Shown here piece by piece: positions 1,964 through 29,931 of a stretch of DNA of 64,000 nucleotides. The position numbers and the translations under genes were made by a program. The stretch is from Peteryoungia rhizophila. Lineage in GTDB: Bacteria; Pseudomonadota; Alphaproteobacteria; Rhizobiales; Rhizobiaceae. The stretch is from contig NZ_STGT01000004.1 of NCBI RefSeq assembly GCF_004912145.1, positions 186,001 through 250,000 of the forward strand, written 5' to 3'. Each line of letters begins with the position of its first letter. The first letter of the stretch is position 1. The notes under the pieces are model-generated. The model worked only from the letters and a program-made list of their open reading frames with translations. It searched no databases and was not told the DNA's origin.

Positions 1964-3598
1964 ATGCGATCAACAATTCGCGGCACAGGCCGTAGGACGT
2001 TCAGAATCTTGTCGCTTGTAGCCTTAGCTTTTGCCCTAGGCTTTGCAGGATACCTCTTTTTGGCGGCTGCGCCGGAGGGCAGGTCTCTCGCTGCGCCGCG
2101 GACGGGGACCGCAGCAAAGCTTGCCGCGAAGGGGGCGGCAGTCTTTGCTGGCGGGGGGTTCGGCGGCATTTCTCAAACGTCGCTAGAAACCAACGCCGTG
2201 CCGTTCAAGCTCATCGCGGCAGCGCTGATGATGGACGAACAGGCGCGCGATCCCACGGCGTCAACTGATCTTGCAACGCTGAGGCGGGTGATGCGGCGCT
2301 TCGGCTTCCTATATCCGGAGATCGTCGATGGCGCCCCCCCTGGAATGCGCCTGCCGCTCGCGGAGAAGCCGCTGGGCATGACCCACGGATTCATCGCGCC
2401 AGTCGGCGGAGCGAGGGTCGAGGTGGCCAATCTGGGCTGTGCGGCGTGCCATGCCGGGGTTGCCTATTCGGCGGACGGGGCCCCGCAGCCAGGCCGCGCT
2501 GTGCTTGGGATGCCCAACACGTCGCTGGATCTCGAAAGCTACACCCAATCGATCTTCACCGCGCTGCGCCGCCATGCAAGCGACCCCGCCTTATTGGCAA
2601 TGGCCGACACGCTGTTTCCGCAAATGAGCTGGCAGGAGCGCGCCTCGCTCCGCTGGATCGTTCTGCCGCTTGCGCGCGGCCGTCTGGCGACACTGGCAGA
2701 CGCAGCGCGCGCGCTTGCGTTCCCAAACGGTCTGCCGGGGGCGACCAATGGCGTCGCCGCGCTCAAGTTCCAGATGGGAACGCCGCTTCTGGGGGACGGG
2801 GCGGGAGATCGTGGGTTCGTCTCGATACCAGACCTCGGCTTGCGCCATCATCGCAGCCGCCTGCTCGTCGATGGGGCCTATGCCACCCCGTCGGGAAAGG
2901 CCGATCCGCACGAACTCGCCGTGATCACCAGTTTCTTCACCGTGCCGAGCATGGGGGTGACGCCAGAAATGGCCCGGCGGCATATTCCCGAGGCCGAGGC
3001 AATCTTCGCCTGGCTCACTGACTATCGCCCGCAAGCCTATCCCGGTTCGATCGACCGGGCGGCGGCTGAACAAGGAGCGGCGCTCTATGCCCGGGGCTGC
3101 GCATCGTGCCACGGCAGTTTCGATTGGAACGCGGGCGTGCCTCGGCTCGCCAGCTATCCCGACTGGATCGGCGACGTGGGGACCGATCCGCTGCGCGCGC
3201 AGGCTGTCGACTCCGGACTTGCCGAGGCGATCCGCAAATCTGCCTACGGCACGGCAATATCGCTGACGAACGGGCAAGGCTACGCGGCCCCACCACTTGC
3301 CGGGGTTTGGGCCTCGGCGCCCTATCTCCACAACGGCTCGGTCCCAAGCCTCGCCGCGCTGCTCGAACCGCGTCTGCGCCCGGCGCGGTTCATGGTCGGC
3401 GGGCATGCGCTCGATTGGCAAAGCATGGGCCTGCGGCTGACCCCGGAGGGCCGCTATCCACCGGACTATACGCCTTTCTCGGAACCACAATGGATCGATA
3501 CCACAGAGCCCGGGCTGGGCAATGGCGGTCATGTCTATGGCAGTGAGCTCACTCAGGAGGAGCGGCAGGCGCTGATCGCGTTCCTCAAACTGCTTTAG
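1964..3598 (+). CDS. Di-haem c-type cytochrome, RoxA/peroxidase-like
   Basis: The protein is about 544 residues from ATG 1964, which places a single membrane anchor or signal segment (ILSLVALAFALGFAGYLFL) right at the N-terminus; TTG 1928 and ATG 1943 are alternative starts. Two haem-attachment motifs are visible, CAACH near residue 160 and CASCH near residue 380, and the C-terminal half carries APYLHNGSVPSLAALL, a signature of the di-haem cytochromes related to cytochrome c peroxidase and RoxA oxygenases. It should be periplasmic and act as an electron carrier, peroxidase or oxygenase; substrate unknown. Its stop codon overlaps that of the convergent nitroreductase gene by 3 bp, so the two transcripts are antisense at their ends. 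Confidence 0.8.
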   Translation: MRSTIRGTGRRTFRILSLVALAFALGFAGYLFLAAAPEGRSLAAPRTGTAAKLAAKGAAVFAGGGFGGISQTSLETNAVPFKLIAAALMMDEQARDPTASTDLATLRRVMRRFGFLYPEIVDGAPPGMRLPLAEKPLGMTHGFIAPVGGARVEVANLGCAACHAGVAYSADGAPQPGRAVLGMPNTSLDLESYTQSIFTALRRHASDPALLAMADTLFPQMSWQERASLRWIVLPLARGRLATLADAARALAFPNGLPGATNGVAALKFQMGTPLLGDGAGDRGFVSIPDLGLRHHRSRLLVDGAYATPSGKADPHELAVITSFFTVPSMGVTPEMARRHIPEAEAIFAWLTDYRPQAYPGSIDRAAAEQGAALYARGCASCHGSFDWNAGVPRLASYPDWIGDVGTDPLRAQAVDSGLAEAIRKSAYGTAISLTNGQGYAAPPLAGVWASAPYLHNGSVPSLAALLEPRLRPARFMVGGHALDWQSMGLRLTPEGRYPPDYTPFSEPQWIDTTEPGLGNGGHVYGSELTQEERQALIAFLKLL

Positions 3599-4572
3599 TC
3601 TAGCAACACTTCGGCAAGCGGCAGGCGGGCGCGGGGGAAGGGACGACCGTCGCGTCTGCCGATCCGCAAAGCGGTTACCAGCCGGCGGTCGACGCCAATC
3701 CCGTGGGCGGCGCAGATGGCTGCAGCCGCCGCCGGGTCATCGGCGAGGGCGGCCAGGACATTGCCCCCCAAGCCGGTTGCATCGACCTCCAGCCACAGCC
3801 GGTGAAAGGCGCGTCCGCTGTCGAACGGGTTCTCGTCCGCAGCGCGGTGAAACAGCACGACGGCGGCCGCGTTGCCAAAGCCCTTGGCCTCGGCCAGCAA
3901 GGCAGGCGCGACGCCAAGCGCTGCGAGTGGGCGAAACAGCGGCCCCAGCACCGCACCCGCGCCCAAAGCCTCGATCGCCGAAAGCTGCATCGCCGCCGCA
4001 TTCAGCCCGTCGCGCGCCCAATCAGGATGACGCGGGCTCAGACGCATCCAGTGCCGCAACTCGGCACGGAAGCCGTCGCCGAGGATGATCGCATAGCTCG
4101 CGCGGTCATATAGCGCGGCAGCGGCGGCGATGGCCACGGGATCGCAAACGACCACCCGGTCTTCGCCAAGAAGCGCTTGTGCCGCGGCAAGGTCCTGCGG
4201 CGATGGCGGGAGGAAGGGCCCGCGCCACGATGCCCGTGCCTTCAGCACCGCCAGCAGCGGATCGGGCTCGGCGCTCGGCACGAAGGTCAGCCGCGCCACC
4301 GGCCTCAAGCCACCCGCCGCCTCACCGTCGAGCCGCTCGACCCGCGTTGCAAGCCCTGCGGCCGAGGCAGCGATCGCCGCACCCTCTGCTGCCGCACCAA
4401 GGCTGATCGCGGCATCATTGCCTCGGGGATCACCGACTGTCAGGCGCCGTGCTGTGTCTTCCAGCAAAATCAGCGCTTCGCCATCGATCCGCCAGCGCGC
4501 GGGCTGGACGTTATGGACGCTTGGCGCAGCCATTGCCGCAGCGACCAGGGAGCGGAGTCCATCGGCGTTCAT
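3595..4572 (-). CDS. Acg-like nitroreductase-fold protein, last gene of operon
   Basis: The 325-residue product begins MNADGLRSLVAAAMAAPSVH and continues NVQPARW, matching the N-terminal APS-HNTQPW motif of Acg-like members of the FMN-dependent nitroreductase family; it also has VGDPRGNDAAISLGAA and a late DATGLGG segment. ATG 4570-4572 is chosen because it overlaps the upstream stop by 4 bp (ATGA); the open frame extends further but only as a shadow. Acg proteins bind FMN but several lack ordinary nitroreductase activity and have been suggested to sequester flavin. Next to an E1-like enzyme, a redox or dehydrogenation step on a small molecule or peptide is plausible, but that is inference. 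Confidence 0.75.
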   Translation of the reverse strand: MNADGLRSLVAAAMAAPSVHNVQPARWRIDGEALILLEDTARRLTVGDPRGNDAAISLGAAAEGAAIAASAAGLATRVERLDGEAAGGLRPVARLTFVPSAEPDPLLAVLKARASWRGPFLPPSPQDLAAAQALLGEDRVVVCDPVAIAAAAALYDRASYAIILGDGFRAELRHWMRLSPRHPDWARDGLNAAAMQLSAIEALGAGAVLGPLFRPLAALGVAPALLAEAKGFGNAAAVVLFHRAADENPFDSGRAFHRLWLEVDATGLGGNVLAALADDPAAAAAICAAHGIGVDRRLVTALRIGRRDGRPFPRARLPLAEVLLD

Positions 4573-5660
4573 GCGATATCCTTGCGGAACAGGTGCAGCT
4601 TGTGGAGCCATCGGCCGTTCATCTTTTCGACTTGCCTGCGGCTCGCCGGGTTTTCGTCGGCGATCCAGGTCCCGCCGATCGTCTCGTAACCTGCAGCGCG
4701 CACCCGTCCGAGGGTCTCGGCCAGCATCGCGCTCATGATCCCCTGACCGTGTGCCGCTCGGGCGACCGAATAGAAGATGATAACTGCGCGCTTGCGGTTC
4801 ATCCGGTATCGCAGGAAGTGCCACGGCGTCGTCAGTCCGACCCGTGAACGGGTCGCCTTGAGGAAGCCGTTCAGGTCCGGGATGGCGATGATCACCCCCA
4901 CCGGCACCCCATCCCGCTTCAGCACCGAGGACAGGCGTGGATCGAGGATCGTGCTGAGCTCTCCCGCCTGGAACTGGAATTCCTCCGGTGTCAGGGGCAC
5001 GAACATGGGATTGTGATGGAAGCCGTCGTTGAGCAGCAGTCGTGCTTCCTCCATACGTTCGAGGAAGGTCCCCTTGCGGATCGGGGCAAAGGTATAGCGC
5101 GCGCGATCGAGTGCTGCAGGCGGGGGGTTAGGGCGAGCAAGGTCGATCTCGAAGGTGGTCATGGGGAAGAAGGCGGAAAAGCCGTTCGCCTCGAGCAGTC
5201 CTGGCAGCCAAGGCGGGCCGACGATCATATCGGTATAGGCGGTCTCCTCGAACCCCCCGGTCATCACCCCGCATTGCTGCATGGCTGTCAGGTTGAAGTT
5301 GCCAACCAGCTCTGTCATCCCCTGGTCGCGTGCGAAGCCTTCGGCGGCATCCAGCAGCATCCGGGCTGCTTGCGGGTCATCGGCACAGTCGAAGAAGCCG
5401 AATTGTGCTCGGCTCCCGCCCCAGCGCTCGTTCGACTGGCGGTGCAGGTGGGCGATGATCCGTCCCACCGGCATTCCGGCGCGGTGCACCGTCCAGAAGC
5501 GGAAGGGACTACCTGCCTGCCATAACGGGTTCTTCGCCGGGTCTAGCATCCGCATCAAGTCCCCCCGCATCGGCGAGACATAGCCGATTTGTGGCGGATA
5601 GGCGTTGAACGGGGCGTCGAAGAAGGCTTCGCGGTCGCCTTCGCGCAAGGTGAGGTTCAT
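4569..5660 (-). CDS. GNAT-family acyltransferase-like protein
   Basis: This 363-residue protein has a C-terminal GNAT core: HGQGIMSAMLAETL corresponds to the acetyl-CoA pyrophosphate-binding loop and WIADENPASRR followed by MNGRW to the last strand and helix. The N-terminal half (about residues 20-180; FNAYPPQIGYVSPMRGD, GNFNLTAMQQCGVM) resembles the long, probably duplicated GNAT proteins of unknown function. It overlaps both neighbours by 4 bp, so it is translationally coupled within the five-gene operon. A role as acyl or aminoacyl transferase acting with the E1-like enzyme is inferred from context; the substrate cannot be named. Confidence 0.65.
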   Translation of the reverse strand: MNLTLREGDREAFFDAPFNAYPPQIGYVSPMRGDLMRMLDPAKNPLWQAGSPFRFWTVHRAGMPVGRIIAHLHRQSNERWGGSRAQFGFFDCADDPQAARMLLDAAEGFARDQGMTELVGNFNLTAMQQCGVMTGGFEETAYTDMIVGPPWLPGLLEANGFSAFFPMTTFEIDLARPNPPPAALDRARYTFAPIRKGTFLERMEEARLLLNDGFHHNPMFVPLTPEEFQFQAGELSTILDPRLSSVLKRDGVPVGVIIAIPDLNGFLKATRSRVGLTTPWHFLRYRMNRKRAVIIFYSVARAAHGQGIMSAMLAETLGRVRAAGYETIGGTWIADENPASRRQVEKMNGRWLHKLHLFRKDIA

Positions 5661-6796
5661 GGGATACGCTCCAGCAGCCGAGCAACGATGGTAAGTTCCC
5701 GCGTCAGCCGCGCTTCGTCCAGCGCGCCGCCCGAGATCGCGAGAAACCGTAGCGAAGGCGCCGGAGAAAGGCGAAGCAGATGGCTGGCACCATAGCGGGC
5801 CAGCAGTTCGCGCGCGGCGCCGGTCAGGGTCTCGTTCGCCGGATCGCGCGTCGCGGTCACCACGGGCCGAGCAGCGAGCGCGATCACAAGGTCTTCGGGC
5901 AGATCGGAGAGTGCCTCTGCGGTCACCATCACAGCATTGGCAAGCAAAGGGTGCGCCGCTAGTATTGCGGCTTCATCGGGCGCAGCGCGGGCGATGGGGC
6001 CGAGGAGCCCCTCGCCGCGTGAAGGGGTGTCGGCGAAACGTTCAGCCAGCAATACCAGCGCCGCTGCGGCACTCGCCGTCGCAGCAAGCGCGGAAGCGAG
6101 CGGGGCGGAGCCGCCCGTAAGATCCACGGCCAGCGCGACCAATGCGCCCGCTCCGGCCAGCATCAGCACATCGGTAAGCAGTCTGAGCGGGCGGCTAGCC
6201 ACACCGGCAAGGAGAGAGCAGGCGAGCACAAAGACGAGCGCCGCGAAGGGACCTCCCCGGAACGGCAGATCGGGGAAGGCCCAAGCAAAATCAGTCGCGA
6301 GTAATGGCAGAGCCAGCGCGAAGGCGAGCGCAAGCATATCCACCGCGTGCCGCTCTGCCAGCGATACCGAACCACGCTGCGCCCACAGGTGCAGGAGCGT
6401 CGCCACGACAACCGTTGCCTGAAACAGCGCGAGCGCGATCAGAGCGGGGCCGGCCCAGACCAACTGGAAGATGATCGCCAGCAGCGAGAATGCACCTGCC
6501 CCCGTGAGCGCAACCAACTTAACGATGCGAGGCGCATGTCGGCGGACCATTTCCTCGGCAAGGCGCAAGGTAACAAGCGGCAGCCACGCCGCCACCACCA
6601 TGGTCGCCGCAACCACAACCGCTGAAGGCTGCGCCAGCCCAATGAGTCGCAGAGCGAGCAGGAGCGCGATCATGGTCAGCAGGCGCGCAAGATGTCCTGC
6701 CACCCCGCCCCCGCGCGCGGCCGCTGCCACCCCGACGCGCGCCACCAGCGCGGCGACTAGTCCAATGGCCGTCAACAGGGCGCCCATCGCCGTCAT
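5657..6796 (-). CDS. Polytopic membrane protein of E1/nitroreductase operon
   Basis: The 379-residue product is very rich in Ala, Leu and Val, with roughly seven or eight hydrophobic segments between residues 5 and 245 and a soluble C-terminal domain of about 120 residues (from FADTPSRGEG onward). I do not recognise the family. The conserved-looking PFRGGPFAALVFVLAC stretch lies between two membrane segments. It overlaps the flanking genes by 4 bp on each side, so it is made in step with the ThiF-like and GNAT-like proteins. It may anchor the enzymes to the membrane or export their product; this is inference from position only. Confidence 0.6.
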   Translation of the reverse strand: MTAMGALLTAIGLVAALVARVGVAAAARGGGVAGHLARLLTMIALLLALRLIGLAQPSAVVVAATMVVAAWLPLVTLRLAEEMVRRHAPRIVKLVALTGAGAFSLLAIIFQLVWAGPALIALALFQATVVVATLLHLWAQRGSVSLAERHAVDMLALAFALALPLLATDFAWAFPDLPFRGGPFAALVFVLACSLLAGVASRPLRLLTDVLMLAGAGALVALAVDLTGGSAPLASALAATASAAAALVLLAERFADTPSRGEGLLGPIARAAPDEAAILAAHPLLANAVMVTAEALSDLPEDLVIALAARPVVTATRDPANETLTGAARELLARYGASHLLRLSPAPSLRFLAISGGALDEARLTRELTIVARLLERIP

Positions 6797-7677
6797 GCCA
6801 GGAGCTTTGCCATGAAACGCCTGACCAACATCCGCTTTGCAAAGGCAAGCGGCGGCGGCAGCGGCCGCTCAACCCGCGGGGCATGGGGGTTGAAGAAATA
6901 GCCCCGGCAATCAGTACCGCCGGGCCTCCCGAGGATCTGCCGGATTGCCTCTTCCGCCATCAGAGTGCCGGCCATCGTTACCATGGTCGCAAAGCTGAAG
7001 CGCGAACGTTTGCCAGCCGCGACCTGGCCCGCGACCTCGAGATCGACATATTTGTGGCTTGAAGAATGCACCAGCACATACTCGATCTCCTTCATCAGAC
7101 ATTCCACACCCATGTCGCGGGTAATTGCCTGCCACGGCACGCCGACGGTTGGATAGCCAAGCCGCTCTTCCAGCCGTGGATCTTGCGGGCGCACTACCGT
7201 GACCGAGGGCAGAGGCGATGCATAGGCATCGATCAACGTGCGTCCGTGCGCGCGGCACTGCCGGTAGAATTCCGCGCCCGCCGCAGCATCATCGGTGCCA
7301 TTGATCGCAACATCAGCGCGGGGGAGTATATCCGGCAGCCGATCGGCCCATTCACGCCCCAGCACTTCGATCTGCAGCTCGGGATTGATCTCGCGCGCCA
7401 GCTTTGCCGCCGCCTCAGCCTTCAGCACGCCAATGGTGTCGGCGCGGGCAAAAAGCTGGCGGTTCAGGTTCGACACCTCGAAGACGTCGAGATCAGCGAT
7501 AACAAAGCGCCCGATGCCCGCGCGCACCAGCGCCATGAAGGCTGCGCCCCCCATTCCGCCAACGCCGGGGATGAAGACGCAGGCTTCGCGCAGGCGCAGC
7601 TGCTCGGCCTCGTTCACGAAACCGCGGTTGCGGGTGGTCATCTCGGCATAGGTGAAGGCGGTCAAGACATCGGTCAT
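6793..7677 (-). CDS. E1-like (ThiF/MoeB) adenylyltransferase
   Basis: The 294-residue protein has the Rossmann nucleotide loop GVGGMGG (about residues 38-44), the DLDVFEVSNLNRQ motif that carries the ATP-contacting Asp, Arg and Gln, a KAEAAAK lysine, and NGTDDA, the equivalent of the DxTDN metal/ATP motif. These define the ThiF/MoeB/E1 superfamily, which adenylates a C-terminal carboxylate. The paired zinc cysteines (CxxC) usual in MoeB and ThiF are absent; candidate thiol-accepting cysteines are in VECLMKE and TDCRGYF. Flanking genes overlap by 4 bp. No ubiquitin-like partner is encoded nearby, so the target could be a small peptide or an amino acid. Confidence 0.85.
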   Translation of the reverse strand: MTDVLTAFTYAEMTTRNRGFVNEAEQLRLREACVFIPGVGGMGGAAFMALVRAGIGRFVIADLDVFEVSNLNRQLFARADTIGVLKAEAAAKLAREINPELQIEVLGREWADRLPDILPRADVAINGTDDAAAGAEFYRQCRAHGRTLIDAYASPLPSVTVVRPQDPRLEERLGYPTVGVPWQAITRDMGVECLMKEIEYVLVHSSSHKYVDLEVAGQVAAGKRSRFSFATMVTMAGTLMAEEAIRQILGRPGGTDCRGYFFNPHAPRVERPLPPPLAFAKRMLVRRFMAKLLA

Positions 7678-8627
7678 TTAAGGGGCCTGAGGCGGTTATA
7701 GGGACGGGTCGGGTCGAGCCACTGGATCATTGGGACCAGCACCGCGCCAGCCAGCACCATTGCCGCCTGCACGGCCAATTGCGGCAAGGCGCTTCGTGGC
7801 ACGCTGCGGGCCAGGAAGCGCTGACCTGCGGCAAGATCGATCTTGCCGATCTGCAGCACATCATCGCCGCGTCCATAGTCGAGCTCTTGCTCGCAGAAGT
7901 CGTTGTATTCCTTGCGCCGGTGCTTGGCAGCCACTGCAAAGGTCTTTTTCAGGTTGTCCGATCCACCGGTATACGCATCCATGATCACCTGCCGGTCGGC
8001 ATCATAGCCTGCGTCCGCGCCCACCCCGAAAGCCTGGCGGTGGCGGTGTATTATCTGATGGGCGAGATGACGATGGTAGAAGGATTGCGGTGTGGCGTCC
8101 TGCGCCGGGAAAACCTCGCTGAAGGTTTCCGCCACCATGCCGACCACCGCCGGCACCTGCGTGACACTGCTGACCCACAGCGGGCGCAAGCCCTGCCGCA
8201 GAAACAGTGCAAAGCATGTGAGACCGTAGAGAACCCACGAAAGTCCGCTGCTGCGCTCTTCGGGGTCGACCATGACCAGCCCGAGATGCAGCACAGTCTC
8301 GCGTGCGCCGCCGCGGATCACGTCGAGCTGCGGCATGGCGTTGAAGGCGATGGGCCGATCATCGGCAATGCGCGTGATGAGAGTCACGACGCTGCGATCC
8401 CAGGCCACCCCATCCTCAGCGAACAGCCCGTAATCAGGGACTTGCCCGGCCAGACAGGCGCGTGCCACCGTTTCGCAGTCCTGCTTGAGCTTGTCGAGCT
8501 CAGCGGGGGGTAGACCAGTACCGGGCCGCTCGCTGATCCACACATTGTACTCGCGCGATGGCTGAAACGAGAGCGACAGAGTTTCACCGGCAAGCGCACC
8601 AAAAAGCCGCAGCAAAATCCCCTCCAC
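7674..8627 (-). CDS. Operon leader, GNAT-like protein of unknown function
   Basis: The first gene of the operon encodes 317 residues from a GTG start. The middle (about residues 115-180: LGLVMVDPEERSSGLSW, then YGLTCFALFLRQGLRPLW) has the look of a degenerate acetyl-CoA-binding loop and helix of a GNAT fold. The C-terminus has one hydrophobic segment (AVQAAMVLAGAVLVPMIQWL), suggesting membrane association. I cannot assign it to a named family. Its stop overlaps the start of the E1-like gene by 4 bp. The 100 bp upstream should hold the operon promoter, but no clear boxes were seen. Proximity to a second GNAT-type protein suggests two acyl-transfer steps. Confidence 0.55.
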   Translation of the reverse strand: MEGILLRLFGALAGETLSLSFQPSREYNVWISERPGTGLPPAELDKLKQDCETVARACLAGQVPDYGLFAEDGVAWDRSVVTLITRIADDRPIAFNAMPQLDVIRGGARETVLHLGLVMVDPEERSSGLSWVLYGLTCFALFLRQGLRPLWVSSVTQVPAVVGMVAETFSEVFPAQDATPQSFYHRHLAHQIIHRHRQAFGVGADAGYDADRQVIMDAYTGGSDNLKKTFAVAAKHRRKEYNDFCEQELDYGRGDDVLQIGKIDLAAGQRFLARSVPRSALPQLAVQAAMVLAGAVLVPMIQWLDPTRPYNRLRPLK

Positions 8628-8730
8628 TCGGGTCGAGCCGACCCAATCTCACCTACGCTATCAGGACTACCGGCCTTTCCTTAACCAGACCTTGATGACC
8701 GTCGATTTCAGGTTCCTGCAGAAGAGCTTG

Positions 8731-8856
8731 TGAATAGCTCCTAGATCTGAGCCAGGAGGCCTACATGAGCAAAGGCAATTGCTTACAAGAACTCAAGCGC
8801 GACGCGGTGCGCCAGATCACCGAGCGGGGCTACCCGGCAGCGGAGGTTCCGCCGTG
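8731..8856 (+). mobile_element. IS3-family left-end remnant with orfA start
   Basis: ATG 8764 opens a 30-codon frame with LKRDAVRQITERGYPAAEV, the conserved start of IS3-family OrfA (transposase helix-turn-helix subunit), preceded by an AGGAGG ribosome site. Thirty bases upstream, TGAATAGCTCC at 8731 resembles the TGAACTG-type terminal repeat of IS3 elements. The reading stops at TGA 8854-8856 and neither the rest of orfA nor orfB is present, so only the left tip survives. It separates the E1 operon from the next gene block. Confidence 0.6.
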
Positions 8857-8999
8857 ACAAAAGTCATAGCTCCGCCGATCATGTATGACGGATTTCTCTT
8901 GGGAGTTTGGGGGCAGGTCAGAGACAGCCTCTCGCAATCGGTACTCTTTGCTGCAACGCTGCTGCCGATGTCTGAAACACGCAAGGACGGTTTGTTATC

Positions 9000-9518
9000 T
9001 TGAAAACCCTTCAGCCTCTCATCCTGACGGCACGCATGTCCGACCGCGACCTCAAGCCATTTGATCGTCTTCGTCAGGAGCACTTTCCGCCGGACCGAAA
9101 TTTCCTGGCGGCTCACCTGACGATGTTTCACCGTCTGCCAGGCGAGTACAGGGAAAAAGTTGTCGAGCATCTGATCGAAGTTGCGACAGGGTACGCGCCA
9201 ATCACAGCTGACGTCAGTGGCCTTCGTCATCTCGGTGCGGGTGTCGCATTCACAATTGCCAGCCCTGACCTTCAGGACATTCACGCCGGGCTCAGGCGAG
9301 CCTTCATGCCATGGCTCGGCGGCCAAGACATGCAGAAGTGGCAGCCCCATATTACTGTCCAGAACAAAGTCTCAAAATTGGCGGCGGCTACCTTGCACGC
9401 TGAACTTATGGAGGGATTCCGACCGCATACGATCGAGATTATCGGCCTCGATCTGTGGCGGTATCTGGGTGGTCCATGGCAGCACGAAAGCTTCGCCATG
9501 TTTGGTCAAGCTCGCTGA
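9000..9518 (+). CDS. 2'-5' RNA ligase / 2H phosphoesterase superfamily protein
   Basis: The 172-residue product has the two histidine motifs of the 2H superfamily, HLTMF (near residue 39) and HITVQNK (near residue 119), in a protein of typical length. Members cleave or form 2',5'-phosphodiester bonds, or hydrolyse cyclic phosphates, in the cytoplasm. The TTG start at 9000 has an AAGGA site about ten bases upstream; ATG 9036 is an alternative that would still keep both motifs. It stands alone after the IS3 remnant and is followed by a strong hairpin. The physiological RNA or nucleotide substrate is unknown. Confidence 0.8.
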   Translation: MKTLQPLILTARMSDRDLKPFDRLRQEHFPPDRNFLAAHLTMFHRLPGEYREKVVEHLIEVATGYAPITADVSGLRHLGAGVAFTIASPDLQDIHAGLRRAFMPWLGGQDMQKWQPHITVQNKVSKLAAATLHAELMEGFRPHTIEIIGLDLWRYLGGPWQHESFAMFGQAR

Positions 9519-9540
9519 TAGAGATCGCCATAGCACGGTC

Positions 9541-9561
9541 CGGAACTGTTTGGCAGTTCCG
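9541..9561 (+). terminator. Hairpin after the 2H phosphoesterase gene
   Basis: CGGAACTG, five bases TTTGG, then CAGTTCCG form a perfect 8-bp stem 23 bases after the stop codon. There is no long T run, so termination may be weak or the hairpin may protect the mRNA end. Confidence 0.45.
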
Positions 9562-9750
9562 CGTTCAAACGAGTATTGATGGGCTTGGACGTAGGCGTCT
9601 GCGCTCCCAACCGAAAATGAAAAAGCCTGCCGCAGGAGGAGGTGCATCGCCTCGATGAATATGAAGATAGCCAAATCAGCGCACAGAATGCAGGCACTGC
9701 TGCCATGCGGGATTTGCCCGTCAAACTTGGCGACCGCTCAGATATCGAAA

Positions 9751-9771
9751 CGCCCGCATCATCAGCGGGCG
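9751..9771 (-). terminator. Rho-independent terminator of the DUF1127 gene
   Basis: CGCCCGC-ATCATCA-GCGGGCG is a perfect 7-bp GC stem with a 7-base loop. Read on the minus strand it is followed by TTT and lies 35 bases after the DUF1127 stop, as expected for its terminator. Confidence 0.6.
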
Positions 9772-9805
9772 TCGTATCATGCGAAATGGGCTCGACGGTA
9801 GCTGT

Positions 9806-9952
9806 CTAGCGAGCGACCGACTGGCGAGCTAAGCTGTGGATATCGGCACGGTTGATGCCGAGGTCCTGCAGTTCGCGCGAGGACATGCGGGCAAGTTCTG
9901 TGACGGTCTGACGGTACCGGCGCCAGTTGTTGAAAGAGCGTGCTACGTTCAT
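9806..9952 (-). CDS. DUF1127 small protein
   Basis: The 48-residue protein MNVARSFNNWRRYRQTVTEL continues with ARMSSRELQDLGINRADI, the standard DUF1127 (YjiS-like) pattern of a short Arg-rich helix followed by the LxDLGI-R-DI segment. ATG 9950-9952 follows a good GGGGA ribosome site; a longer upstream frame is open but out of character. DUF1127 proteins are abundant in Rhizobiales; some bind RNA and affect small-RNA turnover, nutrient metabolism or phosphate and carbon uptake. It is monocistronic, with its own terminator at 9751-9771. Confidence 0.85.
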   Translation of the reverse strand: MNVARSFNNWRRYRQTVTELARMSSRELQDLGINRADIHSLARQSVAR

Positions 9953-10107
9953 GATGATCCCCTTTCGTGAGGTCCCTGTGACGCCAGCAACCTGCTTTGG
10001 TTCCAACGTCGTTTCGATGACTGGAATATAAGCTCTTCGCCGCCGCGCGATAAGACATAACGCTTCAGGTCGGCCATGCGTTAAACGCATGGATCAGGAC
10101 CAAATGG

Positions 10108-11115
10108 TCAGGCCCGGAACCGATCAAAGGCGGTCAGGCGTTTGACCGGTGGATCAGCGTCAAAATAGCGGTAGATTTCGGTGCGAAGATAATGGAGTTC
10201 GTCGTCGAGTGCCTCTTCCCCGACTTCGATCCACCATGATTTGGGGCGACCGTCGCTGCCATCCGACCAGCGATAGCCGCGTGCCTTTAGATGGTCCTTC
10301 ATGTCGAAGGGGCTGTTTTCGGCGAAAATCCGCACCCGCGACTTTTGGCTGGCCTGGTAGAGTTCGGCAAAGGCAGTGGACGCCGTCCCTTCAACTTTAC
10401 GATCAAGGACCTCCAGAAGGGCAAAGCAGTCATCGACCGCGCGATGACCCTCATGAAAATACCCCGCCTGGCCGATCAAATAACCAAGCTTGGTGCCTTC
10501 ATATTCCCGTGCCGACCAGTCGATTTCTGAATTCGAACATGCCCAAGCCCTGCCGTCGAACAAAGGCGAAAACGCTTCGCAAAAAGGCCGGTCGAAGCTT
10601 GCATTGTGGGCAATCACCAGATCGGCGGGCTCGATCAACGCCTGCAATGCTGGCAGGTCGATCGACTGTCCGGCCACCATCTCATTGGTGATCCCGGTTA
10701 GCTTGGTGATCTCAGGAGGAATGGGAACGCTCGGCTGCCGAAGCCCACTATAGATGCCGGTGACATCCCCGACCCAGCCGTTACTGTCGAAGGTGAAGGC
10801 GATCACCCCGAGTTCGATGATCTCGTCCGTGCGGGCGTTGAGGCCGGTCGTCTCGGTATCGAGGATGATACCCCTGAGCGGGTATTCAGGCCGGATAACG
10901 GTCGCGATCGCACGTGGCTCGAGTTTCTTCAGAATGCGGTAGCGGCCTGTCTGCGCCAACTGCCGGACCATCTCGTCCTCGCTGATGGTGACAAATTGCT
11001 GTTCAAGAGCGGCAGGTTTTGCGCGGTCACGGGAGATTGGACGGGTTCCACCGGCCCCTTCAGAAAACATGTCGAACTGCTCTGCCATTCGGTTGCTGGT
11101 ATCTCCGCTATTCAT
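10108..11115 (-). CDS. DEDDh 3'-5' exonuclease (DnaQ/PolC epsilon-like)
   Basis: The 335-residue protein carries the DEDDh exonuclease motifs in order: LDTETTGL (Exo I, near residue 86), VIAHNASFD (Exo II, near residue 168) and GHRAVDDC (Exo III, near residue 224), so the Asp-Glu-Asp-His-Asp catalytic set is complete. The family removes 3' nucleotides from single-stranded DNA or RNA. An N-terminal arm of about 80 residues precedes the domain, and about 100 residues follow it (SRVRIFAENSPFDMKDHLKARGYRW), a tail seen in the 3'-5' exonuclease family of Rhizobiales and sphingomonads. It is separate from any polymerase gene, so repair or nucleic-acid scavenging is more likely than replication proofreading. 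Confidence 0.85.
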   Translation of the reverse strand: MNSGDTSNRMAEQFDMFSEGAGGTRPISRDRAKPAALEQQFVTISEDEMVRQLAQTGRYRILKKLEPRAIATVIRPEYPLRGIILDTETTGLNARTDEIIELGVIAFTFDSNGWVGDVTGIYSGLRQPSVPIPPEITKLTGITNEMVAGQSIDLPALQALIEPADLVIAHNASFDRPFCEAFSPLFDGRAWACSNSEIDWSAREYEGTKLGYLIGQAGYFHEGHRAVDDCFALLEVLDRKVEGTASTAFAELYQASQKSRVRIFAENSPFDMKDHLKARGYRWSDGSDGRPKSWWIEVGEEALDDELHYLRTEIYRYFDADPPVKRLTAFDRFRA

Positions 11116-11487
11116 GACAATCTCAAATCACGTCATTCCGTGCAAAACAAGCCTGCCCCCTTGCTGCGCAAACCGAACACTGACTTGGGGCCTCCGGTCG
11201 CCTCTTCGCGACTGTGAGCCATAATGGTCTACCAGGACGCGCGAGCGTTCAGAACAGGAAAGGGCACATCAGCTGAAGCCGAAAACGCCAAAGCCGTTCA
11301 CCTCCCGCAATACCGGTTAAAAAGGGTTGCCGCAGGAGGGTCAACAAACAGCGGGCGGCGCCGGAAACCGGGATCGGTAGCCCCCGGCGCGCGGGTCCGC
11401 TTAAACGGATCTCTGCCACATCAATATTCGCAGATACTCTATGTTGCCTTGAAGAGACCCGAACTCACGACACCCAAATGCGGACTG
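11116..11487. other. Gene-free stretch
   Basis: This 370-base interval lies between the exonuclease start and the broken vapC gene. It should contain the exonuclease promoter. Short frames are present on both strands, but none shows a recognised motif, ribosome site or codon pattern. A GC-rich patch around 11350-11400 holds no clear inverted repeat. Confidence 0.4.
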
Positions 11488-11861
11488 TTATGTGGACCAA
11501 GGACCGATCACTTTCAGCGCGGCAGCCTCGAAAGGGCTTGTATCGCGAGTTGCGATCGCCAGGCCGTTTGGTGCGGCCGTAGCTGCAATGTAGCTGTCGA
11601 CCGTGCCAATCGCTCTGACAGCTGCTCGAATGCGTGCCACCAATTCGGAATAGATCTGAGACGTAGCCAGATCGAAGGAAAGGAAACGCTCGGAAAAGTG
11701 GGGCAGCGCTTCCTCAAGGCGGTCGCGCAGGATGGCTTGTTGGTTCCCTGGAGGCATAGCAGCGATCCGACGCGAAGTTCAGCAGGTGTCCTGTTGCGAC
11801 TTTCCTGCAGGGCTTCGACGTCGCTGTCCGAGATCTCGACACCACCGGCCTTCTTGATCAA
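11488..11861 (-). pseudogene. VapC-type PIN-domain toxin remnant
   Basis: The C-terminal half reads as a VapC ribonuclease: AILRDRLEEALPHF, FLSFDLATSQIYSELVAR, VDSYIAATAAPNGLAIATRD and a terminal IGPW, including the conserved acidic residues of the second half of the PIN fold. The piece that should precede it, RTPAELRVGSLL, lies in another frame, so a single-base frame change near 11750 separates them. The N-terminal DTNV motif is missing and an unrelated start (MIKKAGGVEI) is attached. No VapB antitoxin gene is adjacent. It is a decayed toxin gene. Confidence 0.65.
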
Positions 11862-12049
11862 TCGCCTAGGCCCCTGAAGACAGAGGTAGCGTAAGATTGA
11901 ATCATGGAACTATCTCGATCCTGCACTTCCAAATTCAGGAGTCGGCATACGGGCGTTAATGTCCTGGTGCTCCTGTGCAGTCTCAGATTGAGCCTTCGTT
12001 TCCGGAGCTTCGCCGCAAACGATCGCCCCCGACGTGGACCCTGTGCCGT

Positions 12050-12307
12050 CTATAGCGCCAGCCCAAGATCATCCTTGCGGACATCGATGAGGTCGGCGAG
12101 GCGTTCCAGAAGGCCAAGGACAAGCAGCAGATCGTCAAGTGTCCCAATGGCGACGCCGGGATCGCCCCGTTTGAGGCGCGCAATGGAGCTCGGCGACGTT
12201 CCGGCACGCATGGCGAGATCGGCGATGGTGATGCGCCGCCGCAACCTGGCGTTTCGGACATTTTGTCCGAGCCTTTCAAAGGCTGGCTTCACCTTGGAAG
12301 ATCCCAA
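12050..12307 (-). CDS. XRE-family HTH regulator, orphan antitoxin-like
   Basis: The 85-residue protein has a helix-turn-helix at residues 13-65 (ARLRRRITIADLAMRAG followed by TSPSSIARLKRGDPGVAIGT and a LDDLLLVLGLLE helix), as in HipB and similar antitoxins. ATG 12305-12307 starts MGSSKVKPAF. The end, DDLGLAL, is followed at once by TAG; the next codons in frame read GPRRGRSFAAKLRK, resembling the usual basic tail of these antitoxins, so the stop could be premature. No HipA or other toxin follows. It may be a stranded antitoxin still able to bind DNA. Confidence 0.65.
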   Translation of the reverse strand: MGSSKVKPAFERLGQNVRNARLRRRITIADLAMRAGTSPSSIARLKRGDPGVAIGTLDDLLLVLGLLERLADLIDVRKDDLGLAL

Positions 12308-12468
12308 TACAATCTTCCCTATCTGAAATAATCCGGCCTACTTTTTATCATATATGACTGACTGTGCCCGCCATGAAGAACTCGGCCCTCTGCACAGCCT
12401 GATCACACGATCCGTGTTGCCGATTTGTCCCGGGGGTATTTCAAAGCGTAGCACTCGCGAAATGAAGC

Positions 12469-12621
12469 ATTGGATGGCTGGTGTCACTGCTGCAGGACGC
12501 ATCAGACGTGAAAGGCGGCATCTATGCGGTGTGGCCGGCCAGTCGATACCTTCTACCGGGCGTTAGACATATCATCGAAGTGCTCATCGCGGAGGGAAAG
12601 ACAGGCAGCCTTGGCAATTGA
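12469..12621 (+). pseudogene. LysR-type regulator, C-terminal remnant
   Basis: A plus-strand frame outside any longer gene reads GWLVSLLQDA, GGIYAVWPASRYLLPGVRHI and IEVLIAEGKTG before TGA 12619-12621. This is the typical end of LysR-family effector domains (IYAVYPSSRHLSPRVRAFIDFL). No HTH or upstream part remains: the frame is closed by a TGA shortly before position 12469. It lies just upstream of the ABC importer operon and may be a regulator cut off when that block inserted. Confidence 0.6.
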
Positions 12622-12850
12622 GGCAGGCAGATGGGAAAGGCCGGTCATGGCTGATACCACAGTAAGACACCCAGCCCATGCACCCCGTGCCATCCACGTC
12701 TACCCCACCCATTGTCCTCCGTCAGCAATTCTGCCGGCATTCCAAAGCCAGAAATTCTCATCCTGCAGGGGAGATTTTCCAAGGCTGATGGCGTCATCTC
12801 TACGTCATCTATCTATGGCACGGGACCATTATGGTTTGGAGAACAGAACT

Positions 12851-19559: not shown

Positions 19560-20360
19560 CTACACCGTGCCGCCAAGCGATCCCTCCAGCGTCGCAAGCT
19601 CCTGCCCGCCTGCCATAAGATCCTGGAGCTGTTCTGCGGTGATATGGCCGCGCAAGGCCGTACCAAGTGTCTGGCCGCGATTGAGCACGGTGAAGCGATC
19701 ACCCACAGCCATGGCATGGCGCACATTGTGGGTGATGAACACGATCGCGATGCCCTGCTTGCGCACCTTGTCGATCGTTGCCAGTACGTTGGCGGTCTGG
19801 CGCACGCCGAGTGCCGAGGTCGGTTCGTCGAGGATCAGCACCTTCGCCCCGAAATGCACGGCGCGGGCAATGGCCACCGTCTGGCGCTCGCCACCCGACA
19901 GCGTGCCCACCGCCTGGTCGGGGCCGCGCAGGCTGATGCCCATTGCGCCCATTTCCTGCATGGTAATGCGGTTGGCATATTCATGGTCGAACAGTTTCAG
20001 CGGTCCGAACTTCCGGATCGGCTCGTTGCCCATGAAGAAGTTGCGGCTGACTGACATCAAAGGGATCATCGCCAGATCCTGGTAGACCGTGGCGATACCG
20101 GCCTCGATCGCATCGCGCGGATCGTCGAACTGCATCGGCTTGCCTTCGAACAGGATTTCACCGCTCGTCGGTTTGTGCACGCCCGACATGGTCTTGATGA
20201 AGGTCGACTTGCCGGCGCCGTTATCGCCGAGAAGGCAGTGGCATTCGCCAGGAAAAATGTCGACCGAGACGCCGGCCAGCGCAATCACCGCGCCGAAATG
20301 CTTCTCGATATCGCGCATTTGGATGAGCGGTGTGCGGGTCATGGTGGGGCTAGGGCTCAT
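19560..20360 (-). CDS. iatA: Inositol/sugar ABC importer ATPase, single domain
   Basis: The 266-residue ATPase has Walker A GDNGAGKST, Q-loop VYQDLAMIP, signature LSGGERQTVAIARA, Walker B LILDEPTSALG and switch FITHN. Like FrcA of rhizobia it has a single nucleotide-binding domain, half the length of RbsA-type ATPases. ATG 20358-20360 (MSPSPTMTRTPLIQMRDI) starts one base after the permease stop, so the open frame upstream of it is a shadow. Last gene of the binding protein-permease-ATPase set. The inositol assignment rests on its place in the iol locus rather than on ligand residues. Confidence 0.8.
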   Translation of the reverse strand: MSPSPTMTRTPLIQMRDIEKHFGAVIALAGVSVDIFPGECHCLLGDNGAGKSTFIKTMSGVHKPTSGEILFEGKPMQFDDPRDAIEAGIATVYQDLAMIPLMSVSRNFFMGNEPIRKFGPLKLFDHEYANRITMQEMGAMGISLRGPDQAVGTLSGGERQTVAIARAVHFGAKVLILDEPTSALGVRQTANVLATIDKVRKQGIAIVFITHNVRHAMAVGDRFTVLNRGQTLGTALRGHITAEQLQDLMAGGQELATLEGSLGGTV

Positions 20361-20361
20361 C

Positions 20362-21474
20362 TCAGCGCTCCCCTGTAATAATGCGGCGGATATAGGTGTT
20401 GAGAATGACGGCAAACAGCAAGATGACGCCGAGGAACACCCGAAACAGGCTGCTTTCGACCCCTGCAAAGAACAGCCCCTGCTGGACGACGCCGAAGATC
20501 AGCGCGCCGAGGGCCGCCCCGATGACCGAGCCGTAACCGCCCGTCAGCAGCGCACCGCCGATAACGACGGCGATGATGGCCTCAAATTCCTTGAGCAGGC
20601 CACGATCGGCCCCGGCGGAGCCGAACTCGAAAACCTGGCAGGCGGCAAAGACCGTAGCACAGAAGGCCGTGAACATGAACATCAGGATCTTCACCCGGTT
20701 GACCGGTACACCGACATAACGTGCGGCCTGGGCGTCACCACCGGCGGCGAAGATCCAGTTGCCGAAGCGGGTGCGGGTTAGGACGAAGTGACCGACGGCG
20801 ACGAGGGCCAGTGCCCAGACGATCAGCATCGGCAGGCCGTCGACAACAGGCTGGCCCTTGAGGTTGCCGCGCTCGAAGACGGTCAGCATACCAATCTCGC
20901 CGAGCCAGGTGAAAAGCGGCTGGCCGATCTTGCCGCCGAAGGCAGGGGCGAGCCAGTCGCCCTCGGCCGCCTCGCGAATGCCACCGATAATGGTCTTGCG
21001 CTCGAGTGTCTGGGGCAGGAAGATGGTGAAACCGCGCAGGATGAAGAGGGTGGCAAGCGTCACGATGAAGCTCGGCAGGCCGGTGCGCACGACGATGTAG
21101 CCGTTGAGCGCACCCAGCGCCACGCAGATGACGAACGTCAGCAGGATGGCGAACCAGACCGGCCAGCCGAGCGTGACGCTAAAAATGGCGATCAGCATGC
21201 CGGCAAAACCAATCATCGAGCCGACGGAGAGATCGAATTCGCCGGCGATCATTAGCAGGCAGGCGCCGACGGCGATGATCATGAACTGTGCCGAGACGAT
21301 GGACCAGTTCAGAACGCCTTGGGCATTGAACATGCCGCTGTCATGGGCAAACAGGGCGAAGAAGGCAAACACCGCCACTGTCCCGACCATACTTCCCAGT
21401 TCTGGTCGGATCAGGCTGCGCCTGAAGGCCGACATCGTTTTGACGCGCTCGTCGGTGTGCGCATTGTTACTCAT
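20362..21474 (-). CDS. iatP: Inositol/sugar ABC importer permease
   Basis: The 370-residue protein is a ribose/fructose-type (RbsC/FrcC) permease with about nine to ten membrane segments; AGEFDLSVGSMIGFAGML and FEFGSAGADRGLLKEFEAIIA (before VVIGGALLTGGYGS) are family landmarks. It transports across the inner membrane with the ATPase that follows by one base. A strong hairpin lies in the gap separating it from the upstream binding-protein gene, which probably lowers permease and ATPase expression relative to the binding protein. Substrate is inferred as myo-inositol from the adjacent catabolic genes. Confidence 0.8.
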   Translation of the reverse strand: MSNNAHTDERVKTMSAFRRSLIRPELGSMVGTVAVFAFFALFAHDSGMFNAQGVLNWSIVSAQFMIIAVGACLLMIAGEFDLSVGSMIGFAGMLIAIFSVTLGWPVWFAILLTFVICVALGALNGYIVVRTGLPSFIVTLATLFILRGFTIFLPQTLERKTIIGGIREAAEGDWLAPAFGGKIGQPLFTWLGEIGMLTVFERGNLKGQPVVDGLPMLIVWALALVAVGHFVLTRTRFGNWIFAAGGDAQAARYVGVPVNRVKILMFMFTAFCATVFAACQVFEFGSAGADRGLLKEFEAIIAVVIGGALLTGGYGSVIGAALGALIFGVVQQGLFFAGVESSLFRVFLGVILLFAVILNTYIRRIITGER

Positions 21475-21536
21475 GAGCCAGTCCCATCATGTGCTGATGC
21501 AGGCAGGCCTCCGCGTGGAGCATGCTGCATGATAGA

Positions 21537-21561
21537 GCGGCGAAGGCCATGCCTTCGCCGC
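21537..21561 (-). promoter_or_regulatory. Intercistronic hairpin between binding protein and permease genes
   Basis: GCGGCGAAGGC-CAT-GCCTTCGCCGC is a perfect 11-bp stem with a three-base loop, 13 bases after the binding-protein stop on the minus strand. It is not followed by a T run. Such structures after binding-protein genes commonly stabilise the upstream message and cause partial termination, giving more binding protein than permease. Confidence 0.7.
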
Positions 21562-21573
21562 CTTGACGTTTGA

Positions 21574-22524
21574 TCAGCGGTATTCGCCCGCAAACTCTTC
21601 GACCTTGGACAGGGCTTCCTTGGTGACGAAGCCCGGGCCAGAGTTGATGTTGTTGCCCGGCAGCACGCCGTAGCGATCATAGTTTGTCAGGATCACAACT
21701 GGCAGATAGGCCTGCAGGAAGGGCTGCTGGTCGATGCCCCACTTTATGGTGCCGTCCTTGATGGCCTTGACGATTTCGGTGCCCAGATCGAAGGTGCCGA
21801 AATAGAGCGAGCCGGCCGTACCCATTTCCTGCAGCGCCTGGATGGTCGGGTCTGCCGAAGTCGGCCCCAGGGTCAGAACGGCCTGGGTATCAGGATTTGC
21901 CGTCAGGTAGGCTTTCACGCGGTTCTTGATTTCGGCCGGGTCCTGGCCGGCATCGATCATGCTGTCGCCCAACTCAATGCCGAGACCATCGGCAAAACCG
22001 CGGCAGCGATCGGCCACGACCGTGTTCGAGATGACATGGTTGACGCAGACGAAAGACTTGATCCCGTCGCCCTTGGCGCGCATGCCGGCAGCCAGGCCGG
22101 CATCATATTCCGGCTGGCCGACGAACATCAGCGCGCCCACTTCCCGGGTCTGCTCCGGCGTGCCGGAATTCATGATGATGACGTCGATGCCCTGGTCGAC
22201 AGCGGCCCGGATCGGGCCCGAGAGAACGTCGAAATCGGCGAGCGTGGTGATGATGCCGTCGGGATTAGATGCAGCTGCCTGCTCGATGATGCGGGCCATG
22301 TCGGCCAAGTCTCCGGTCGGCGGATTGCGATACTCTACAGTCACGCCCATCTGCTTGCCGGCTAGCGCGATGCCGTTCTTGATGGTGTTCCACCAGCTGT
22401 CGCTATCGGGCGCATGGCTGACGAGGATGTAGCGTTCGCCCTCCGCGGAAGCGGCTCCTGCGATCACGAAGGGTGCCGCAACCAGGGTGACGGCCAGTGC
22501 GAATGTTTTTGCCAGTTTAGTCAT
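21574..22524 (-). CDS. ibpA: Inositol/sugar ABC importer periplasmic binding protein
   Basis: The 316-residue protein starts with a signal peptide (MTKLAKTFALAVTLVAAPFV, cleavage near ASA) and is a class I sugar-binding protein of the RbsB type: SHAPDSDSWWNTIKNGIALA, ADMARIIEQAAASNPDGII, VDQGIDVIIMNSG and YFGTFDLG. A GGAGG site precedes ATG 22522-22524. It leads the importer operon and is transcribed away from the LacI regulator across a shared 168-bp region containing the palindromic operator. Myo-inositol is the likely ligand by context; fructose or ribose cannot be excluded from sequence. Confidence 0.8.
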   Translation of the reverse strand: MTKLAKTFALAVTLVAAPFVIAGAASAEGERYILVSHAPDSDSWWNTIKNGIALAGKQMGVTVEYRNPPTGDLADMARIIEQAAASNPDGIITTLADFDVLSGPIRAAVDQGIDVIIMNSGTPEQTREVGALMFVGQPEYDAGLAAGMRAKGDGIKSFVCVNHVISNTVVADRCRGFADGLGIELGDSMIDAGQDPAEIKNRVKAYLTANPDTQAVLTLGPTSADPTIQALQEMGTAGSLYFGTFDLGTEIVKAIKDGTIKWGIDQQPFLQAYLPVVILTNYDRYGVLPGNNINSGPGFVTKEALSKVEEFAGEYR

Positions 22525-22603
22525 TGTTTCCTCCCAGAGAATGACGGATGCAGCGCGAGGGCGTTGCCGCGCCTGACGATCAGACTACACCAAAGCGGGC
22601 CTT

Positions 22604-22619
22604 TTGCAACCGGTTGCAA
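22604..22619. promoter_or_regulatory. LacI-type operator, copy 1
   Basis: TTGCAACCGGTTGCAA is a perfect 16-bp palindrome with the central CG expected of LacI-family operators. It lies between the divergent binding-protein and regulator genes, so it can control both. An identical copy occurs at 26983-26998. Confidence 0.8.
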
Positions 22620-22692
22620 CATTAGCCTTGTCAATACATGCTGCGCCTCGAGTGTTCCTGCGCTAGAAAGACAGTTCTGAGAGGATTAAATT

Positions 22693-23691: not shown

Positions 23692-23730
23692 CGACTGCTA
23701 CGAACCGCATGATCACCCTGCGAGAACTGA

Positions 23731-23760
23731 CCGGCCGGGCAGCGATAGCGGCCCGGCCGG
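23731..23760. terminator. Bidirectional terminator-like hairpin
   Basis: CCGGCCGGGC-AGCGATAGCG-GCCCGGCCGG is a perfect 10-bp GC stem with a 10-base loop, centred between the convergent regulator gene (ends 23691) and the dehydrogenase gene (ends 23767). Position suits termination from both sides, although T runs are lacking. Confidence 0.6.
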
Positions 23761-23766
23761 ATCGAA

Positions 23767-24924: not shown

Positions 24925-24935
24925 TATGCCCGTTC

Positions 24936-25829: not shown

Positions 25830-25852
25830 ATCCGGTGAGACCTTTCTTTGAA

Positions 25853-26956: not shown

Positions 26957-26981
26957 TTTGCGCCGCCTCGTTTAAAATCTG

Positions 26982-26999
26982 TTTGCAACCGGTTGCAAA
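26982..26999. promoter_or_regulatory. LacI-type operator, copy 2
   Basis: TTTGCAACCGGTTGCAAA is a perfect 18-bp palindrome whose 16-bp core is identical to the site at 22604-22619. It lies between the divergent iolG and iolD genes, so binding of the LacI-type regulator would repress both catabolic operons together. Confidence 0.8.
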
Positions 27000-27083
27000 T
27001 TTTGTATCGTCAGATCAGGTTTTGCACAAGATGGTTTTGTGCGGAGCCTGAAAATTATGCGTCATGCAAGGAACAGGCTCGCC

Positions 27084-28949: not shown

Positions 28950-28950
28950 C

Positions 28951-29919: not shown

Positions 29920-29931
29920 AAGGACGCGCGC

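Follow-up and report, generated by a model that had tools for sequence, protein, structure and literature searches.

A conserved ThiF, nitroreductase-fold and acyltransferase operon in Peteryoungia rhizophila with a candidate role in acyl-lipid synthesis

Introduction

What does a ThiF/E1-like adenylating enzyme do when it is encoded together with acyltransferases and a flavin-type enzyme, and when no ubiquitin-like partner is visible nearby? This question is raised by a five-gene operon in a 64,000-nucleotide stretch of the Peteryoungia rhizophila genome (assembly GCF_004912145.1, contig NZ_STGT01000004.1, positions 186,001 to 250,000), which is called the window below. The operon encodes two GNAT-type proteins (GNAT1 and GNAT2), the ThiF protein, a membrane protein (MEM) and a nitroreductase-fold protein (NTR). 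A first-pass annotation of the window, made from the sequence alone, had described a unit for carboxylate activation, acyl transfer and a flavin redox step at the membrane, and had considered small-molecule modification, peptide modification, stress and defence as possible roles.

Pathways that pair a ThiF protein with a flavin oxidase to make acyl-oxazolones were worked out only recently, and their physiological role is described as a major unresolved question (PMC12856293). Known systems are OxzAB in Pseudoalteromonas rubra, TyzABC (Rv2336, Rv2338c and Rv2337c) and TrzAS (Rv1356c and Rv1355c), in which the N-acyl amino acid made by an acyltransferase undergoes ATP-dependent cyclisation by a ThiF protein and O2-dependent desaturation by a nitroreductase-fold oxidase (PMC10404671, PMC12856293). 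Rv1355c was shown to be an acyl-oxazolone synthase (PMC12856293). Here we report that the operon is a real, conserved and mobile unit, and we propose, with a probability of about one half, that it makes an acylated amino-acid-type lipid by a route in which N-acylation is combined with an ATP-dependent step that activates or cyclises the carboxylate and with a desaturation.

Results

The ThiF protein was used as query in a pattern-based scan of 84,980 species genomes, which gave 36 loci as a lower bound. The first-pass annotation would have been refuted by homologues of the five proteins that are not found together in other genomes; instead, the same five genes stood in identical order in 16 of 16 loci with a ThiF at least 49% identical in its best segment (L021–L036). 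The NTR of L023 was present as two open reading frames (ORFs), and that of L036 ran past the end of the contig. The window operon has the four-base ATGA overlap at all four junctions, as first described, and over 21 loci such overlaps of the A/G/T-TGA kind accounted for 77 of 84 junctions, the seven exceptions lying in L029, L033, L034 and L135. Besides the window, this count took in 20 of the 23 further five-gene loci, L138, L144 and L145 being left out. The host records comprised Sphingomonadales (7 of 16), Rhizobiaceae, Caulobacteraceae, Hyphomonadaceae, Hyphomicrobium, Cupriavidus, a Nevskiaceae bacterium and less defined metagenome genomes.

ThiF matches were also present in ten plasmid records, and the five-gene order was found in all five that were examined (Rhizobium WL3, two Ensifer, Shinella and Rhizobium 32-5/1); one close copy of the operon sits on a plasmid. 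Among the plasmid copies, the GNAT2 of L145 and the NTR of L144 were short ORFs; with these, the NTR of L023 and the GNAT1 of L140, single operon genes appeared interrupted or shortened in four loci. In a ThiF tree, the window copy grouped with three Rhizobium copies in a single clade placed within the Sphingomonadales copies; this speaks for a transfer between orders, although the tree has long branches and a warning on one row, L008. The case for transfer comes from this tree and not from codon-position GC. The idea that the operon is marked as foreign by its composition was rejected, as its GC at third codon positions (0.72–0.79) lies inside the range of seven other window genes (0.59–0.82).

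The ThiF protein matched the Pfam family ThiF (6.2e-34), and its nucleotide loop is kept, with R73, K86 and D129 invariant. Cysteines are found only at positions 33, 141, 193 and 257 and form no CxxC pair, which bears out the earlier statement that the zinc pairs are missing. Across 17 sequences no cysteine was invariant, the most frequent being C193 in 15 of 17. An ordinary MoeB/ThiF identity was ruled out by the missing zinc pairs together with a separate group in the tree. The best NCBIfam family of the operon ThiF was PRK08223, and by profile the oxazolone-type group was the nearest: the operon ThiF profile scored 104–129 bits on 20 loci of a wider group with NTR or acyltransferase neighbours (L037–L056) and 72–88 bits on 18 further loci that encode ThiF-family proteins in related genomes, the latter called MoeB/ThiF-like by these low profile scores and not by family search. 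In the wider group an NTR was fused or nearby in 12 of 20 loci, all four ThiFs tested exceeded the PRK08223 cut-off, and the three upstream proteins tested were exosortase-type acyltransferases. The same arrangement of acyltransferase, ThiF and NTR characterises the clusters for acyl-oxazolones and N-acyl dehydrotyrosines (PMC10404671, PMC12479983). When 15 ThiFs were aligned, an N-terminal F-Y...(T/S)RN.G(F/W)...EQ motif was common to operon and oxazolone-type rows and was not seen in the three MoeB-like rows, whereas R73, K86 and D129 were common to all rows. Six loci of the wider group, five from Thiobacillus and one gammaproteobacterial (L038, L039, L041, L047, L049 and L050), had a ThiF of the PRK08223 type, with membership tested for L049, and conserved neighbours without a recognised NTR.

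The ThiF/E1 fold and the kept adenylation residues would also suit a ubiquitin-like or sulfur-carrier modification in which ThiF adenylates a protein C-terminus and the carrier is encoded elsewhere. However, the operon genes overlap, so that a carrier gene would have no room between them, and ThiF is accompanied by acyltransferases and a flavin-type enzyme. An all-against-all comparison of ORFs of at least 90 residues in L021–L036 showed that, among the matches listed, only the five genes, a convergent cytochrome gene and ORFs overlapping them are widely common, with no further conserved partner ORF; the few other clusters joined two to four loci each. In the 700 bases upstream no ORF was common beyond pairs of relatives, apart from weak scattered matches (E 6e-6 to 1e-3) that were not followed, and downstream short ORFs were not scanned. 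No shared carrier-type ORF was thus seen beside the operon, in a search that covered the locus and not the rest of the genome, and with neither a carrier at the locus nor an invariant cysteine or zinc pairs in ThiF we rejected a ubiquitin-like identity and regard the unlinked-carrier variant as improbable. The absence of a visible ubiquitin-like partner in or beside the operon, as first noted, holds. The suggestion of peptide modification found no support, since no shared precursor ORF was seen among ORFs of at least 90 residues at the locus or in the 700 bases upstream.

The spread between orders, together with weak matches of ThiF in PADLOC, could suggest anti-phage defence with an E1-like protein at its core. 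These matches (32, of which the 25 listed were all generic E1-E2) cover the common ThiF core, however, and the other four operon proteins matched nothing in PADLOC. The annotated neighbours on plasmids are metabolic, transport and lipid genes. A defence role, which the first-pass annotation had entertained, was rejected and seems very improbable.

GNAT2 matched the Pfam GNAT family (3.6e-8) and no NCBIfam family above cut-off. Its profile matched 12 of 114 other alphaproteobacterial genomes at 104.5–167.1 bits, with nearly the whole profile covered in four of the twelve, and an hmmsearch on the whole ORFs of these homologues gave 124–172 bits. A serine palmitoyltransferase (Spt) homologue was found near four of the twelve (11–14 kb read); two of the three tested were over the curated cut-off and one was below. 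A fatty-acid-hydroxylase-like gene was near eight of the twelve, the family being confirmed for the two tested, and a ninth matched weakly; L115 had neither kind of gene nearby. Tests of three loci for LptF/LptG genes confirmed them in each. In Caulobacter, CC_1154 (cerS) is the ceramide N-acyltransferase, and LptF2/LptG2 are encoded in that region too (PMC11324152). The presence of its homologues in ceramide-type clusters places GNAT2, at a distance, in the ceramide synthase family, and by sequence it is a distant homologue of bacterial ceramide synthase.

The operon could instead belong to a sphingolipid-like pathway, with GNAT2 acting as a true ceramide synthase and the products of the remaining genes modifying the ceramide or a related amino-lipid. 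The genes found with the GNAT2 homologues fit such a pathway, as does the number of Sphingomonadales among the hosts, an order known for sphingolipids. In the window's genome, however, none of three Spt matches was over the cut-off (best 294 bits vs 500), in a family that also gives matches below the cut-off in most of 14 control genomes, and the profile found no second GNAT2 homologue. The lack of an Spt over cut-off suggests that the GNAT2 acceptor in this genome is probably not a long-chain base. Moreover, we know of no place for a carboxylate-activating ThiF in ceramide synthesis. We therefore consider the sphingolipid-like pathway unlikely.

For GNAT1, a profile search matched 3 of 385 genomes within the class and 8 of 398 within the phylum, the window's genome being in both counts. 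Eight other genomes with GNAT1 were inspected, and two of them (G757 and G762) carry all five genes. In five (G291, G349, G518, G599 and G615) GNAT1 is followed directly by MEM, with no other operon gene in the 14.5–18 kb read, and in G713 GNAT1 is interrupted and no MEM adjoins it. Whole-genome searches of the eight found operon-type ThiF, NTR and GNAT2 in G757 and G762 only; in the remaining six, ThiF matches did not exceed 83 bits, NTR matches reached 80 bits at best and were lacking from two genomes, and GNAT2 was unmatched. The occurrence of GNAT1 and MEM alone in five genomes argues that they are a module of their own, to which ThiF, GNAT2 and NTR were added as a trio. This separable module had been missed when the five genes were first described. 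The two-gene GNAT1-MEM operons without the other genes are loci L126, L127, L136, L137 and L139.

No Pfam or NCBIfam match above cut-off was found for GNAT1, and its assignment comes from the predicted structure (pLDDT 78). The best Foldseek match to a GNAT fold was NatD (E 7.0e-6), and VIA-align superposed the model on GCN5 with Z 11.3 and a root-mean-square deviation (rmsd) of 3.2 over 160 residues, tied with AAC(2'). FeeM and acyl-homoserine lactone synthases were absent from the structure matches listed, which excludes nothing. The GNAT1 and GNAT2 profiles did not match each other. A PEP-CTERM/exosortase system was also rejected: exosortase acyltransferases stand beside three oxazolone-type ThiFs, yet they showed no profile match to GNAT1. 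MEM had been described as about eight helices with a soluble tail; the model keeps the tail, as a C-terminal alpha/beta domain, and raises the count to nine long helices, with ten hydrophobic stretches in the sequence. No Foldseek match at E 0.001 was found for MEM. By the order of its elements the C-terminal domain looks GAF-like, a likeness that none of our tests showed. A membrane protein near the ThiF of L043, by eye a histidine kinase, was considered as a relative of MEM and rejected, as there was no detectable match (hhalign probability 1%).

NTR had been called Acg-like. It matched PDB 2ymv, which is Acg (1.5e-13), and scored 143.8 bits against the Acg family, where the curated cut-off is 199, so that the likeness holds below formal membership; the Pfam nitroreductase match was likewise below its cut-off. 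The proposed link to Rv1355c-type proteins, in which ThiF and nitroreductase domains are joined, stands as a distant one, with NTR at 56.0 and ThiF at 39.9 bits, both far below the family cut-off of 476.

A gene for a c-type cytochrome lies beyond NTR on the other strand, and the two stop codons overlap. It is a sixth gene that the five-gene description had left out, and it was present, convergent, in 13 of the 16 loci L021–L036; L034 has it on the opposite side, no copy was found in L027, and the contig of L036 ends before it could be seen. The protein contains a RoxA-like domain (PF21419, 5.9e-20) and two CxxCH sites, and it scored 59.4 bits against a RoxA cut-off of 1000 and 132.2 bits against a di-heme peroxidase cut-off of 150. 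In Ensifer and Shinella its place is taken by a fusion of an MFS transporter, PlsC and an acyl-ACP synthetase (L142:13220-16618 and L143:13350-16748), which in Ensifer matched PRK06814, an acyl-ACP--phospholipid O-acyltransferase, with 1716 bits. An alpha/beta hydrolase is encoded beside the operon in L135 and L138, in L138 past the cytochrome. Some of these neighbours fit a lipid role for the operon. Upstream of GNAT1, L029 and L135 have one opposite-strand gene in common, which in L135 is the alpha/beta hydrolase.

Past the Ensifer and Shinella fusion gene there are YiaA/B, PspA and TetR-type genes, and the two-gene locus L139 is likewise flanked by PspA and TetR genes (families matched; L136 is alike by eye). 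These neighbours would suit a membrane stress-response system with MEM as a receptor governing GNAT1 and the other proteins adjusting the membrane lipids under stress, and the MEM helices could be superposed on those of seven-helix receptors and rhodopsins (best Z 15.1, rmsd 3.7, 192 residues). The typical best Z of the aligner for helical models is about 14, however, and neither a kinase nor any other output domain is present. A PspA gene was not seen by eye in the window, nor did one occur among the shared genes of L021–L036. A stress-response role thus appears unlikely, much as the sphingolipid-like pathway does.

The positions of the six genes are given in Table 1. In the Rhizobium WL3 plasmid copy the GNAT1 start is annotated four codons downstream of the GTG at 8627.

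Table 1. The operon and the convergent cytochrome gene, in window positions
Gene	Length (residues)	Position	Strand	Features
GNAT1	317	7674..8627	minus	GNAT-fold protein; GTG start at 8627 or four codons later; hydrophobic C-terminal stretch 280-298; pairs with MEM
ThiF	294	6793..7677	minus	ThiF/E1-like adenylating enzyme; GxGGMGG, R73, K86 and D129 kept; no zinc CxxC
MEM	379	5657..6796	minus	membrane protein; nine long helices and C-terminal alpha/beta domain (~258-379) in the model; no family match above cut-off
GNAT2	363	4569..5660	minus	distant homologue of ceramide-cluster N-acyltransferases (CerS/bCerS)
NTR	325	3595..4572	minus	nitroreductase-fold, Acg-like; third clade beside the FDO-A and FDO-B sets
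Cytochrome		1964..3598	plus	RoxA-like, c-type; two CxxCH sites; N-terminal hydrophobic stretch; faces NTR

Several features of the surrounding DNA were also recorded. A segment of about 4.0 kb at 8725-12715, which ends 97 bp upstream of GNAT1, is extra compared to the otherwise collinear Rhizobium sp. WL3 plasmid, with 92.7 and 96.2% identity on its two sides. It contains an IS3-like OrfA remnant and ORFs that by eye are 2H-phosphoesterase-, DnaQ-, PIN- and HTH-like, and it may separate the operon from its promoter. Past the cytochrome, at 446-1624, is an HPP-family membrane protein gene with two CBS domains, which was unmatched in L021–L036 but is retained in the Rhizobium WL3 plasmid. By eye, 19560-31610 resembles a sugar ABC transporter and myo-inositol catabolism region.

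Discussion

In the pathway that we propose, GNAT2, as a homologue of ceramide-cluster enzymes, would transfer a fatty acyl group onto the amine of an amino acid or an amino-lipid at the inner membrane face. ThiF, with its adenylation residues kept, would adenylate the carboxylate of this product with ATP, and the neighbouring amide would close to an oxazolone-like ring; alternatively, the activated acyl group might be passed to an acceptor. NTR, from its relation to nitroreductase-fold oxidases, would use FMN and O2 to desaturate the alpha-beta bond. GNAT1 and MEM, which are found as a pair, would act as a distinct acyltransferase module, bound to the membrane, by which the product is placed or transferred, and the cytochrome may act on the exported lipid in the periplasm or remove peroxide. 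ThiF, GNAT2 and NTR would then be the counterpart of the acyltransferase, cyclase and desaturase of TyzABC, OxzAB and TrzAS, with a ceramide-synthase-type enzyme as the first.

Several results weigh against this pathway. The operon and oxazolone-type ThiFs were not joined in the tree, in which they and the MoeB-like group stand apart, and the operon ThiF scored 112.8 bits against a cut-off of 266 for PRK08223, our proxy for the oxazolone-cyclase type. The 22 operon NTRs formed one clade (100/100) outside 12 FDO-A and 14 FDO-B rows, sets that were assembled for this analysis and are not the published network; the FDO-A proxy consisted of NTRs adjoining or fused with oxazolone-type ThiFs, and L023 and L036 were left out. 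By sequence, NTR is thus a third clade beside these two sets. The comparison as a whole was made through PRK08223-type ThiFs and the NTRs beside them, and TyzA, TyzB, OxzB and TrzS were not among the compared sequences. As for the acyltransferases, GNAT1 showed no profile match to nine exosortase/NasY-type enzymes (hhalign probability 0.1%), GNAT2 aligned with the ceramide-cluster proteins over its full length at 21–25% identity, and 8 of its 12 genome matches ended at position 252–279 of the 364-position profile.

Like OxzAB, TyzABC and TrzAS, the operon encodes a ThiF-family protein, a nitroreductase-fold protein and an acyltransferase together (PMC10404671, PMC12856293), and the ThiF aspartate of these systems and of ThiF/MoeB is kept as D129. 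Unlike them, it has ThiF and NTR in clades apart from the proxies used, its acyltransferases are a ceramide synthase homologue and a GNAT without the exosortase/NasY match, and it adds MEM together with either the cytochrome or the acyltransferase/acyl-ACP synthetase. The clusters for stieleriacine, kyonggic acid and thalassotalic acid combine an N-acyl amino acid synthase, a ThiF and a nitroreductase, the same three activities, and in two producers the gene junctions are short or overlapping as in the operon (PMC12479983). They differ in the same clades and acyltransferases as OxzAB does and by the methyltransferase genes in Stieleria, and the available part of that report mentions neither a MEM-like protein nor a cytochrome (PMC12479983). 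As with CerS/bCerS, including Caulobacter CC_1154, the homologues of GNAT2 cluster with Spt, LptF/LptG and fatty acid hydroxylase genes (PMC11324152, PMC11087976); in contrast, the window's genome has no Spt over cut-off, and CC_1154 itself was not among the rows behind the low identities given above. The cytochrome shares its RoxA-like domain and two CxxCH sites with the RoxA/RoxB rubber oxygenases and the di-heme cytochrome c peroxidases, but falls below both family cut-offs. Because the operon fails the ThiF family cut-off and the FDO-A clade proxies, we regard it as a variant that probably works like the oxazolone pathways with different parts, and not as a member of them.

A more specific version of this proposal is more tentative, and we hold it at somewhat less than even odds: a ceramide-synthase-family N-acyltransferase would feed a ThiF cyclase and a flavin-dependent oxidase of a third class, this trio having been added to an undescribed GNAT1-MEM membrane acyltransferase module, and the product would be an undescribed class of membrane-active acyl lipid. 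The linkage of ceramide-synthase-type and ThiF/flavin-oxidase chemistries was not found in the literature searched. Nor was a prior description of this gene set found in the titles and abstract openings of the open PMC literature, among the matches listed. The earlier remark that no such operon is known can therefore be kept for the gene set in the literature searched, and is given up for the kind of pathway, which is known.

Taken together, the comparisons support the first-pass view of a conserved unit with putative carboxylate activation, acyl transfer and flavin redox functions at the membrane, and they define GNAT1-MEM as a conserved pair. The combination of genes should surprise specialists of either field. 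It suggests a wider use in lipid chemistry of ThiF enzymes that have no carrier protein, and such a variant from soil and water bacteria, which includes parts of ceramide-synthase-like and membrane type, would offer a tractable place to find the product and its role.

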